Shown piece by piece: positions 49,974 through 56,690 of a DNA stretch of 64,000 bases. How positions within the stretch are numbered: position 1 is the first letter of the stretch; each line of letters starts with the position of its first letter. The notes beneath the pieces are model-generated. The model was given only the letters and a program-made list of their open reading frames with translations. It made no database searches and was not told the DNA's origin. The DNA comes from Microtetraspora sp. NBRC 13810 (GTDB taxonomy: Bacteria; Actinomycetota; Actinomycetes; Streptosporangiales; Streptosporangiaceae): NCBI RefSeq assembly GCF_030268685.1, contig NZ_BSRQ01000006.1, positions 186,001-250,000 of the forward strand. Reading direction: 5' to 3'. The translations under genes and the position numbers were made by a program.

Positions 49974-50510
49974 TCACCGCCGGATGAAGCCCGGCGGGAC
50001 GTGGCCGGTCAGCCACACGCCGTTGGCGCTGACGTGGAACTCGTGCCCGGCCGCGTGCATGCCGGCCGCGTCCACCACGAGGACCACCGCTCTGCCCCGG
50101 CGCGCCCCGACCCTGGTGGCGGTCTCCCGGTCCGGTGACAGGTGCACGTGGTGGCGGTTCATCGGCCGCAGCCCTTCGGCCAGGATCGCGGCCACCGATC
50201 CACCGGCGGTGCCGTGGTAGAGGATCGGCGGCGGCGTCACCGCCGGCAGGCCGAGGTCCACCGGCACCGAGTGTCCCTGGCTGGCCCGGATCCGCCCGCC
50301 GTCGAGCGCGAACCGCTGCTTGTCGTTGCCCGCCACGACGAGCTCCAGTTCCTCCCGGGTGATCGGGAAGCGGTTCGCGGCCAGGGCGGCGAGCAGCGTG
50401 TCCACGTCCACCCAGCCGTGCGCGTCCAGCTCGATCCCGATCCGCTCCGGCTGGTGCCGCAGGTGCTTGGCCAGGTACTTGGAGACCTTCACCATCCGCC
50501 GCTCGTCCAT
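49974..50510 (-). CDS. kptA: RNA 2'-phosphotransferase (Tpt1/KptA)
   Basis: This 178-residue protein has the full Tpt1/KptA signature: VSKYLAKHLRHQP with the first Arg/His pair, KQRFAL, IRASQGHS, ILYHGT, NRHHVHLS and HEFHVSANGVWLT. It removes a 2'-phosphate from RNA with NAD, yielding ADP-ribose-1'',2''-cyclic phosphate. Bacterial roles are unclear since they lack the eukaryotic tRNA splicing that makes the substrate. ATG 50510 lies 7 bp after the histidine phosphatase stop, so the two are probably co-transcribed. Confidence 0.95.
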   Translation of the reverse strand: MDERRMVKVSKYLAKHLRHQPERIGIELDAHGWVDVDTLLAALAANRFPITREELELVVAGNDKQRFALDGGRIRASQGHSVPVDLGLPAVTPPPILYHGTAGGSVAAILAEGLRPMNRHHVHLSPDRETATRVGARRGRAVVLVVDAAGMHAAGHEFHVSANGVWLTGHVPPGFIRR

Positions 50511-53007: not shown

Positions 53008-53034
53008 CCCCGTTTCCTTCTATCGGAAACGGGG
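53008..53034. terminator. Hairpin upstream of the crp-like gene
   Basis: Perfect 10-bp arms CCCCGTTTCC / GGAAACGGGG enclose a 7-nt loop, followed by TCATTTGGTTGT. It insulates the crp-like promoter from upstream transcription. Confidence 0.65.
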
Positions 53035-53913: not shown

Positions 53914-54633
53914 ATGGAACAGCACAGGACGATACTCGTCGCGGACGTCGAGAAGTACAGCCGCAGGAACGGCGACGATCAGGCGAAGCTCCAGTCCGCC
54001 CTGGTCGAATCACTGGACCAAGGCGCCGAAGCCGCAAAGCTCGCAACCTTCGAGTGGGACCGGCAGAAGCAGGGCGACGGCCAGTTCGTGGTTCTTCCCG
54101 CGCGAACCGACCCCATGACCGTACTGGGTCCCTTCGTGACGGCCCTTTCGAAGTCTCTGCTCGTCAGGCAAACGGCGACGTTCCGCATCCGTGTGAGGCT
54201 GTCCATCCACGAAGGGCCGATCCGGCTCGACGGCGTCAACGGATTTCCCGGCGATCACGCGGTCGAGCCCGCTCGGCTCGTCGGCGCTCAGCCTTTGAGA
54301 AGGGCGCTGGCCGCCCGCCCCGAGGCATGCCTGGGAGTGATCATCTCCGAGCGATTCTTCAAGGACTACGTGGGGCAGAGACCGGGCGGCCCTCCACGCG
54401 ATCAGTTCCGGCGCGTCGACCTGGTGGAGAAGGACAAGCCGTACGTCGCCTATATCCACCTTCCCGGCCACAACGTGCACGCGCTGGACCTATCCCCCAC
54501 TTCTCCCGCCGCCCCGACCTCACCAGACAGGTCGGATGGCGATCGCGACGGCCCTGTCTACTACGTCAGTGGCGCGGGCTCCAACGTGGCTACGTACGGC
54601 GCCCAGACCAACCACCAGAACTTCGGCCGATGA
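53914..54633 (+). CDS. Class III nucleotidyl-cyclase-like protein with C-terminal assembly motif
   Basis: In this 239-residue protein, residues 4-185 resemble a class III cyclase homology domain: LVADVEKYSRR (D11, first metal Asp), RQKQGDGQFVVLP (D55, second metal Asp in the GDG turn), RVRLSIHEGPI and HAVEPARLVGAQPLRRAL. The transition-state Arg (R121) is kept, but the usual Asn of the VNxAAR motif is Glu. Residues 195-214 are a Pro/Ser/Asp linker. Residues 217-238 form the motif VSGxGSNxATYG, QxNxQxF shared with the next protein. It is coupled to that gene by ATGA. It is either an atypical cyclase (Pycsar-like) or a nucleotide sensor. Confidence 0.75.
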   Translation: MEQHRTILVADVEKYSRRNGDDQAKLQSALVESLDQGAEAAKLATFEWDRQKQGDGQFVVLPARTDPMTVLGPFVTALSKSLLVRQTATFRIRVRLSIHEGPIRLDGVNGFPGDHAVEPARLVGAQPLRRALAARPEACLGVIISERFFKDYVGQRPGGPPRDQFRRVDLVEKDKPYVAYIHLPGHNVHALDLSPTSPAAPTSPDRSDGDRDGPVYYVSGAGSNVATYGAQTNHQNFGR

Positions 54634-56690
54634 GCGACGAGGACCTTCCCGAGCACCGGGGATCACCGCCACAGGAACCTTTCGAGGACACCGCCGCTCC
54701 GGACAGGCTCGCCGCCGAGGATTTCGAAGAGCACACGCCCGCCGAGATCGAACGCCAAAGCCTCTTCCGGCTGGAGGGACTGGCCTCGCTGGAGACGTCC
54801 TATGACGTGTCAGGTCAAGGCTCCAATATCGCCACATATGGCAATCAGTACAACGTCCAGCAGTTCAGCATCACCGGCAGGACAGCCCGGCTCGTCACCA
54901 CACTGCCCCCGGAGCAGGTGCGCGACATCGCTGCGCGGACCGTGCCGACCCAGTCGCAGCGGCGGCTCGCCGAGCGCCTGCACGACACCTCCGTAGTTCT
55001 GCTACGGGGACGTCCCGAGTCGGGATGGAGAACGACGGCCTACGCCGCGCTCCTCGAGCGAATCGGAAAATGTACCGGCACGCCGCTGGCGATACTCCAC
55101 ACCGACACGAACCCGGCCGAGTTGAGGGCCCAGGATCTAGACCGGGCCGACGGCTTCCTTCTCGACGCGCGTAACGCCCCATGGCTCGCCGAACCGGACG
55201 AGGCGATCACACAGCTGCGGATGGCCGCCCACGCCGCCGGCCGCCTGATCGTTGTGCTGGTCACCGAGGTAGGCGCCGGTTGCGAACATTCGGTCGTCCA
55301 TGTCCCTCCCGCACCGATGGACGTGTTCCAGAACTGGCTTGACCATTGGCTGCACACAACAGAAGCGTGGAAGGAGCACGGTCTCGACGAATACGAAGCC
55401 CAGTTGATGGAGATCCTGGACAGGTGCTCCCCCGGCCGGGCCAGAGAACTTGCCCTCGATCTCGCCACCGGCATCCAGGCGGGCAAGTCCGTGGGCCAGA
55501 TGCTGGAGACCCAGCGACAGCCTCTGCGCGAAAAACTGCAGCACGCACTCGGCGACACCGCTTCACCGTTCAGCCGATGTTTCCTGGTCAGCAGCGGCGT
55601 TCTCCATCGTCTCCGCGAGTCGACCGTCTCCGGAGCCGCCCTCCAACTCGAAGCGCTCGTCCGCGAAAAGGAGAACGAGCGGAACAGACCTGGACCTCCC
55701 GTCTGGGAATCCCTGCGGGAGTTGCTCGTCTACAACGGGTTACAGACCGAACCGCCCTCTGCCGCGGGAGACGGGCACAGCGTCTGGCTACGGCCGGAGG
55801 CCCGTGCGCAGGTGCTACACGTCGTTTGGGAAGAGGTACCCGCTCTTCGGAGCATCCTGATCGACTGGCTACGCGAACTCACCGGTCGCAAAGAGTGGGA
55901 GGTGGCCATCCGCGCCGCCCAGGCGGTGGGGCAGTTGGCCGCCTGCGATTTCAATGCCATCCGGCGAGAGTTTCTGGAGCCATGGTCAGAAAGCGGTTAC
56001 AGCGGCAACAGGCTCGTGATGGCCGCGTTGGAAGCCGCGTCACTCGACGCCGACCTCCGCCGTCGGGTTCATCATCTGCTGGAAGTCTGGTCGAACGGGA
56101 ACTACAAGCGCCGGACGACAGCGGCGATGACCTACGGTTCCCAGATCGGCGTGCGGGCCATCGACAAGGCGTTGCCCGCCTTCAACCGGGTGGTTGCGCA
56201 CTCCCGAAGCAAGCACCTGCACGCTCTCGTCGCGAGGGCCGTGACCGAGACGCACGTGGCCACGACCGCGGATCGGATCACACGAGAGCTCCGGCGGTGG
56301 GCCACGTCCGACTCCTACGGGCTGCGACGTACGGCAGCCGTCGCCTTCACCTCGCTGGCTCATCTACCGAACGGGTTTCCAGGGCGCCCGGCGCTGGTCG
56401 AAAGTACCTTGCACAGCGAAATGGCGGCTCTCTGGTGCCATGCGCTCGACTGGTCGAAGCCCGCCCTTCCGGACCCGGAGGGCCGACTTCCCACGCCTCC
56501 CGTCTTGCCTCTTCTCGCAGGCTGGGCCGGAAGGACTTCATGCCAGCCGGTCGTGGAGGAGATCTTCCGGGCTGTCGGCACCCGCCATCGTCAGCTTCGG
56601 CTGCCGTTCCACGTCCATCTGCGTGCCTGGCAGGCGCGCGGGATCATCACGACCGCGCAGCGAGCGGTCCTCGGCGATCTACTGAAGTGA
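54630..56690 (+). CDS. Large protein with shared N-terminal motif, degenerate P-loop and helical-repeat C-terminus
   Basis: In this 686-residue protein, residues 1-57 are acidic and disordered. Residues 59-79 carry the motif VSGxGSNxATYG, QxNxQxF also found at the C-terminus of the cyclase-like protein. Residues 100-260 look like a P-loop NTPase with degenerate Walker A (G127 RPES G132 W133 R134 TT, no Lys) and a Walker-B-like FLLDA near 176-180. Residues about 430-686 are HEAT/ARM-like helices. There is no signal peptide or membrane helix. It may be a STAND-like scaffold that has lost ATP hydrolysis. Family not recognised by name. Confidence 0.7.
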   Translation: MSDEDLPEHRGSPPQEPFEDTAAPDRLAAEDFEEHTPAEIERQSLFRLEGLASLETSYDVSGQGSNIATYGNQYNVQQFSITGRTARLVTTLPPEQVRDIAARTVPTQSQRRLAERLHDTSVVLLRGRPESGWRTTAYAALLERIGKCTGTPLAILHTDTNPAELRAQDLDRADGFLLDARNAPWLAEPDEAITQLRMAAHAAGRLIVVLVTEVGAGCEHSVVHVPPAPMDVFQNWLDHWLHTTEAWKEHGLDEYEAQLMEILDRCSPGRARELALDLATGIQAGKSVGQMLETQRQPLREKLQHALGDTASPFSRCFLVSSGVLHRLRESTVSGAALQLEALVREKENERNRPGPPVWESLRELLVYNGLQTEPPSAAGDGHSVWLRPEARAQVLHVVWEEVPALRSILIDWLRELTGRKEWEVAIRAAQAVGQLAACDFNAIRREFLEPWSESGYSGNRLVMAALEAASLDADLRRRVHHLLEVWSNGNYKRRTTAAMTYGSQIGVRAIDKALPAFNRVVAHSRSKHLHALVARAVTETHVATTADRITRELRRWATSDSYGLRRTAAVAFTSLAHLPNGFPGRPALVESTLHSEMAALWCHALDWSKPALPDPEGRLPTPPVLPLLAGWAGRTSCQPVVEEIFRAVGTRHRQLRLPFHVHLRAWQARGIITTAQRAVLGDLLK

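Follow-up and report, generated by a model that had tools for sequence, protein, structure and literature searches.

A locus-variable, pair-specific motif is shared by a class III cyclase-like protein and a STAND-like HEAT protein in Microtetraspora and suggests an amyloid-signalling-type switch

Introduction

Bacterial amyloid signalling sequences (BASS) were reportedly sorted by Dyrka et al. in 2020 into families 1-10. They were defined on pairs of BELL and NLR proteins and, less often, on pairs with CHAT or TIR effectors (PMC7889193; PMC9815663), and what amyloid NLR signalling cascades do for the organism has been named a blind spot in a review (PMC7889193). Nucleotide cyclases have also been found coupled to STAND-type NTPases, by means of folded adaptor domains (Kaur et al. 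2020, PMC7159879; 2021, PMC8195603). Here we analysed a stretch of 64,000 nucleotides from Microtetraspora sp. NBRC 13810 (contig NZ_BSRQ01000006.1, positions 186,001 to 250,000), hereafter the window, in which two overlapping genes encode a class III nucleotide cyclase-like protein (P0001) and a STAND/AAA+-like NTPase with a HEAT-type solenoid (P0005). A sequence-only reading of the window had drawn attention to a 20-residue motif shared by the end of the first protein and the start of the second, and had likened this arrangement to amyloid signalling. Our results suggest that the two segments are a pair of tags, differing from locus to locus yet matched within each, through which a sensor switches an enzyme on by tag-to-tag assembly, likely as part of a self-destruct or anti-virus circuit.

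Results

The gene of P0001 (239 amino acids; 53914-54633, forward strand) and that of P0005 (686 amino acids; 54630-56690, forward strand) overlap by ATGA. The effector-side motif VSGAGSNVATYGAQTNHQNF occupies residues 218-237 of P0001 (54565-54624, forward strand) in its C-terminal tail, and the receptor-side motif VSGQGSNIATYGNQYNVQQF occupies residues 60-79 of P0005 (54807-54866, forward strand) in its N-terminal region. The two were identical at 14 of 20 positions, with a V/I exchange in addition, exactly at the residues and with the agreement given in the sequence-only reading. The difference in codons claimed there was also found, since the DNA of the two motifs agreed at 37 of 60 bases and the same codon was used at 7 of the 14 identical residues, the other half being written with other codons. 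Over an extended segment of 22 residues, 7 of 15 identical residues had the same codon, as compared with 8.5 expected from the pooled codon usage; the window pair has no excess of identical codons, thus shows no sign of recent copying, and recent gene conversion was ruled out for it. Searched against the whole 9-Mb genome, the 27-residue tail of P0001 matched only itself and P0005 (E = 0.0018), with no other gene of this genome carrying the motif, and its score against P0005 was 73, which is 8.2 standard deviations above those for 51 non-cognate partners, of which the best reached 40. Chance similarity was ruled out by this gap together with the genome-wide uniqueness. The predicted local distance difference test (pLDDT) of AlphaFold was below 50 at residues 216-237 of the cyclase and 56-86 of P0005, with confident domains on either side, and the motif regions had no Pfam match. 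Both segments are thus predicted to be disordered, and a motif that forms part of a folded domain was ruled out.

Conservation of the match was analysed in 52 adjacent cyclase/STAND pairs, with a score of at least 45 taken as a match. In 43 of them, the C-terminal tail of the cyclase and the N-terminal region of the STAND protein shared a motif of about 26 residues with 55% identity. The motif itself differed by locus, for example LTGKGANANVSGRDQTINQ with ISGKGGNANVSGGDQTINQ at one and VAYGGGDAIGGHKVGRDLN with LAYGGGDAIGGHQIGRDLN at another. The mean cognate score was 64.8 versus 29.3 for shuffled pairings, whose maximum in 20,000 permutations was 38.6. The cognate partner ranked top against all distant partners in 42 of 52 pairs, and when partners were swapped between loci with 40-75% identical cyclases, the true partner was better in 431 of 435 swaps. 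As controls, the cyclase tail was scored against the body of the STAND protein (cognate 26.4 versus 25.5) and against three neighbouring gene products described below, Crp (24.4 versus 24.2), X3 (23.0 versus 23.9) and PycTM (21.4 versus 22.1), and no cognate signal was present with any of these partners of its own locus. Cyclase homologues with no adjacent STAND gene had no such tail motif, the few best neighbour scores of 44-47 being mostly low-complexity linker matches. The co-variation across adjacent gene pairs that had been proposed as a check was therefore found, with a match private to each pair, and the homologous pairs carried it in the same places and in predicted disorder, rather than lacking it or having folded segments there. 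Independent drift of two ancestral copies fails to explain this pattern, since cognate and non-cognate partners would then be equally similar. The two segments are either selected to match each other or repeatedly copied.

In composition, the motifs were enriched in Gly (20.4% versus 6.9%) and Asn (6.5% versus 1.6%), as well as in Tyr and Ile, and depleted in Leu, Glu, Pro, Ala and Arg. Of the Gly/Asn/Gln richness described earlier, the Gly and Asn parts held across the pooled motifs, but Gln was not enriched (3.5% versus 3.3%). Neither the PP core NxGxQxGxN (BASS3) nor the RHIM core [VI]Q[VILC]G was present in any of the 43 motif pairs. The layout bore out the likeness to amyloid signalling, being equal to that published for BASS (PMC7889193, PMC9815663).

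The cyclase had no Pfam match. Its AlphaFold (AF2) model, with a pLDDT of 86.3, was similar to the mycobacterial adenylyl cyclase Ma1120 (5d0h; VIA Z 16.0 over 155 residues, rmsd 2.4) and to CyaC (VIA Z 15.5), and the class III cyclase fold was also matched by Foldseek (E 2.4e-8) and by a profile match to Ma1120 (E 4.7e-4). Residues D11, D55 and K173 were present in all 52 family cyclases and R121 in 51 of them. From their motif positions, we take R121 and K173 to be the transition-state Arg and the phosphate Lys of class III enzymes. D11 and D55 are 44 residues apart, the same spacing as between D102 and D146 of EaPycC and between D62 and D106 of AnPycC (PMC11224242). The modelled fold and the conserved residues together support the assignment of P0001 as a class III nucleotide cyclase. 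As the catalytic residues are kept and the base-selecting positions are changed, the product is likely a 3',5'-cyclic nucleotide monophosphate (cNMP) of uncertain base.

The model of P0005 (pLDDT 77.9) consisted of a disordered N-terminus, a helix at residues 37-54, the disordered motif, a P-loop AAA+/STAND-like domain and a HEAT-type solenoid. Residues 87-298 resembled AAA+ domains with a Z of about 10, and residues 298-686 resembled HEAT proteins in a generic way, with a Z of about 11. The HEAT/armadillo-like solenoid (residues 299-686; 55524-56687, forward strand) is the candidate sensor domain. Structural matches of P0005 to PP2A and importins were set aside as generic to HEAT solenoids, and Foldseek also matched the filament of AVAST5 weakly (9nc9, E 1e-3). 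All profile matches were under the curated cut-offs, including nSTAND3 (0.085), the HEAT-type DNA_alkylation family (0.0025) and, within the family, NACHT. The Walker A motif of the family reads G...G[R/K]xT, with Arg at the Lys position in 34 of 51 members and Lys in 12. In P0005 it is the degenerate GRPESGWRT (residues 127-135; 55008-55034, forward strand), with Trp at the Lys position (residue 133; 55026-55028). The Arg-for-Lys exchange in this STAND-like family possibly allows nucleotide binding without hydrolysis, and nucleotide-driven oligomerisation of P0005 appears plausible. In layout, with its predicted STAND/AAA+-like P-loop domain and HEAT solenoid, P0005 resembles the NLR-type scaffold proposed earlier, but its Walker A motif is degenerate.

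Upstream of the cyclase, P0002 (53134-53850, forward strand) is a Crp/Fnr-family regulator with Pfam matches to cNMP_binding (3e-16) and HTH_Crp_2 (7.7e-14), and its CNB domain also matched the PycTIR model of PADLOC (2.2e-14). Among its homologues beside a cyclase, the phosphate-binding Arg94 was present in 44 of 45 and Glu/Asp85 in 45 of 45, so by its sequence P0002 retains the residues of the cNMP site. A perfect 7-bp inverted repeat, CGTTTCCTTCTATCGGAAACG, lies at about 53011-53031, some 123 bases upstream of the Crp gene, and is a possible operator; when the palindromes upstream were scanned in relatives, no common site was found, CGTTTCCTTCTATCGGAAACG included.

On the other side, P0004 (57469-57981, reverse strand) is convergent to the operon and encodes a PycTM-like membrane effector (PADLOC PycTM, 8.2e-8) with hydrophobic segments at residues 63 and 151. 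This convergent position was taken by two PycTM clusters, one of ten proteins including P0004 and one of thirteen, some of whose 13 loci are the same genome counted twice. One member of the second cluster matched Pfam PF18967 (9.2e-18). Family-wide, 21 PF18967 genes were located at most 10 kb from the listed family cyclases versus 0.16 expected, a rough estimate that takes positions as uniform, uses whole contigs and counts related genomes separately, and the excess is still more than hundredfold. At one locus (G585:C2:17454-18717), three PF18967 matches of the PycTM family stood in tandem, about 500 bases apart.

The third gene of the operon, X3 (P0003; 56692-57468, forward strand), is conserved in Streptosporangiaceae-type modules, and its homologues were directly 3' of the STAND gene in 28 loci. 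X3 had no match in Pfam, NCBIfam or PADLOC. Its N-terminal half looks rich in beta-structure by eye and precedes long helices, a layout reminiscent of Band-7/SPFH proteins, and cNMP cyclases coupled to Band-7 domains have been described by Kaur et al. In other clades (L036, L042, L047), the genes after the STAND gene were replaced by others whose products have a domain of the PP2C phosphatase, APH-like, OmpA or M48 peptidase kind, which suggests interchangeable output or sensor cassettes; P0003 and most of the clade-specific third and fourth genes had no clear family.

Within the same bacterial family, 221 of 343 genomes had relatives of P0001, often more than one each, whereas a phylum-wide scan of 396 genomes found them in only 10, its own included; relatives of P0005 were present in 27 of 395 genomes of the class. 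The STAND-linked form was found in named genomes of Nonomuraea, Planobispora, Streptosporangium, Acrocarpospora, Microbispora, Actinomadura, Nocardia and Kutzneria, and more distant cyclase relatives in Actinoplanes, Micromonospora and Streptomyces. The order of Crp, cyclase and STAND/HEAT genes was conserved, with a brief overlap of the cyclase and STAND genes as a rule and X3 next in many loci. The pair in the window belongs to a module that is widespread in actinobacteria and is made of Crp, a cyclase, a STAND-like HEAT NTPase and X3, often with a PycTM-type effector nearby. The Crp and PycTM genes around the pair, which hint at its output, had not figured in the sequence-only reading.

Other arrangements of cyclase genes were observed too. 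In L122, L123 and L133, two cyclase homologues stood around one Crp gene, with neither a STAND gene nor the motif. In genomes of one genus (g19, for example G615 and G639), the number of cyclase homologues per genome went up to at least 8-9, a count of 8 being about the number of candidates scored, and the ones examined were mostly without a STAND partner. Outside the module, the gene at 49974-50510 (reverse strand) encodes a protein that by eye resembles the KptA/Tpt1 RNA 2'-phosphotransferase, beside a histidine-phosphatase-like gene.

Discussion

We consider it probable, at roughly 0.6, that the two segments form a cognate pair of motifs of the bacterial amyloid-signalling type, and that through them the STAND sensor activates the cyclase and the cyclase product in turn targets Crp and PycTM. 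P0005 would be the receptor, sensing a trigger via its HEAT solenoid and then oligomerising. The clustered N-terminal motifs would nucleate a beta-rich, probably cross-beta, assembly, which could template the motif of identical type in the C-terminal tail of P0001 and activate the cyclase by concentrating its subunits. The product would act on the P0002 regulator to amplify transcription, and on the PycTM-type membrane protein to cause membrane damage, growth arrest or death. Direct homotypic contact of the two motifs is very likely, their amyloid nature is likely, and activation of the cyclase by clustering is suggested by the arrangement. The locus would then give an output like that of Pycsar, placed under NLR-like control by an amyloid-type link, probably with a role in defence or cell death. 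To the full picture of an NLR-gated, Pycsar-like immune circuit, in which diversifying pair-specific motifs serve amyloid-type templating and cNMP both opens PycTM and drives Crp, we would give about even odds.

Several results weigh against this proposal. In 40 of 52 family cyclases, Val stands in place of the Asn of the class III VNxxxR motif, and in 41 of 52, Gln stands at the Lys position that selects purines, which makes the nucleotide and even the activity uncertain. The PycC models of PADLOC matched neither P0001 nor two other family cyclases. Owing to the degenerate Walker A, P0005 may have an impaired ATP-driven switch or one of another kind. Nine of the 52 pairs scored under the match threshold. 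In the pooled motifs, 342 identical codons were counted at 581 identical residues, versus 300 ± 10.5 expected, and this small excess implies that sequence copying contributes in some loci, in a minor role.

The main rival is a homotypic link that is not amyloid, in which the disordered segments co-fold into a small beta-structure, a heterodimer or short oligomer, and tether the two proteins without templated polymerisation. All of the co-variation evidence fits any self-complementary motif and hence this explanation as well. However, the Gly/Asn-rich composition, the layout of effector C-terminus and receptor N-terminus (PMC7889193, PMC9815663) and the pseudo-repeats in related loci, such as GxDW-GG...AGRD in L084-L088, are all as in published amyloid motifs, and we regard a non-amyloid link as unlikely. 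It is quite improbable that both motifs instead bind a third partner, such as the membrane, X3 or a phage-derived ligand, and match by tracking it. X3 is the conserved third gene in many loci, which would suit such a partner, but nothing in X3 or PycTM tracked the motif, strong cognate motifs were present in loci with no X3 detected (e.g. L033, L046, L047, L103), and near-identity over about 25 residues exceeds what a shared short ligand motif needs.

The pooled codon excess, strongest in L031 (14/16) and L103 (13/15), could also be read as a sign that the match is a functionless by-product of duplication or gene conversion between neighbouring genes. This is the least credible of the explanations and in our view very improbable: the codons of the window pair were no more alike than by chance, the match was largely limited to the motif with differing flanking linkers, and it recurred in many genera with different sequences and was absent from cyclases that lack a STAND neighbour. 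Finally, the signal might run in reverse or the cyclase might be a regulator, with the STAND protein holding it inactive or with cyclase assembly triggering an effector action of the STAND protein. The degenerate Walker A leaves the STAND switch unproven and so leaves room for this order of events, but the linked Crp and PycTM genes are obvious targets for a cyclase product and the HEAT solenoid is in the usual sensor position, so that only a small chance is given to it.

If the amyloid-type reading is true, amyloid signalling would here, to our knowledge, be seen for the first time to feed into a second-messenger cascade. The divergence of the motifs would then insulate parallel circuits from one another, and the more than 40 naturally diverged cognate pairs provide a ready data set on what fixes the specificity of amyloid templating. 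Because the product of this enzyme effector can be assayed and its candidate targets are conserved, templated switching of an enzyme and its consequences become directly testable. Our literature search returned no paper in which a short matched motif links a cyclase effector to a STAND protein, though the supplements of Dyrka 2020 may list a cyclase, and no report of a Crp-cyclase-STAND-X3-PycTM module; the word "cyclase" was absent from the main texts of four open papers on amyloid signalling.

Like BASS systems, the locus has a short motif common to the effector C-terminus and the N-terminus of an adjacent or overlapping NLR/STAND protein, disordered linkers, and a distribution in multicellular actinobacteria (PMC7889193), a likeness of layout and composition. 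Unlike them, it has a class III nucleotide cyclase in the place of a BELL, CHAT or TIR effector, and its STAND protein carries HEAT repeats and has no confident NB-ARC or NACHT match. In the fungal and animal HET-S/NWD2 and RHIM/PP amyloid signalosomes, the architecture and the proposed templating logic are similar, but the effector enzyme is another and no sequence relation was detected. The EAD and Death-like conflict systems also join cyclase effectors to STAND-type NTPases by matching homotypic adaptors in multicellular bacteria, some with Crp-like factors; their adaptors are folded domains (EADs, bDLD), whereas the link here is a disordered, Gly/Asn-rich and locus-variable motif of 20-30 residues. 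With Pycsar, the locus shares a class III cyclase with the spacing of 44 between metal-binding Asp residues, a linked PycTM-family membrane protein and a cNMP-binding protein in the same operon, but P0001 matches no PycC profile and differs at the base-selecting positions (PMC11224242). The locus further differs from Pycsar in its added STAND receptor with a matched motif, and in its CNB domain, which belongs to a Crp regulator and not to a TIR effector. The module would combine the NLR-like amyloid signalosome with the Pycsar-type second messenger, two immune logics that have so far been described separately.
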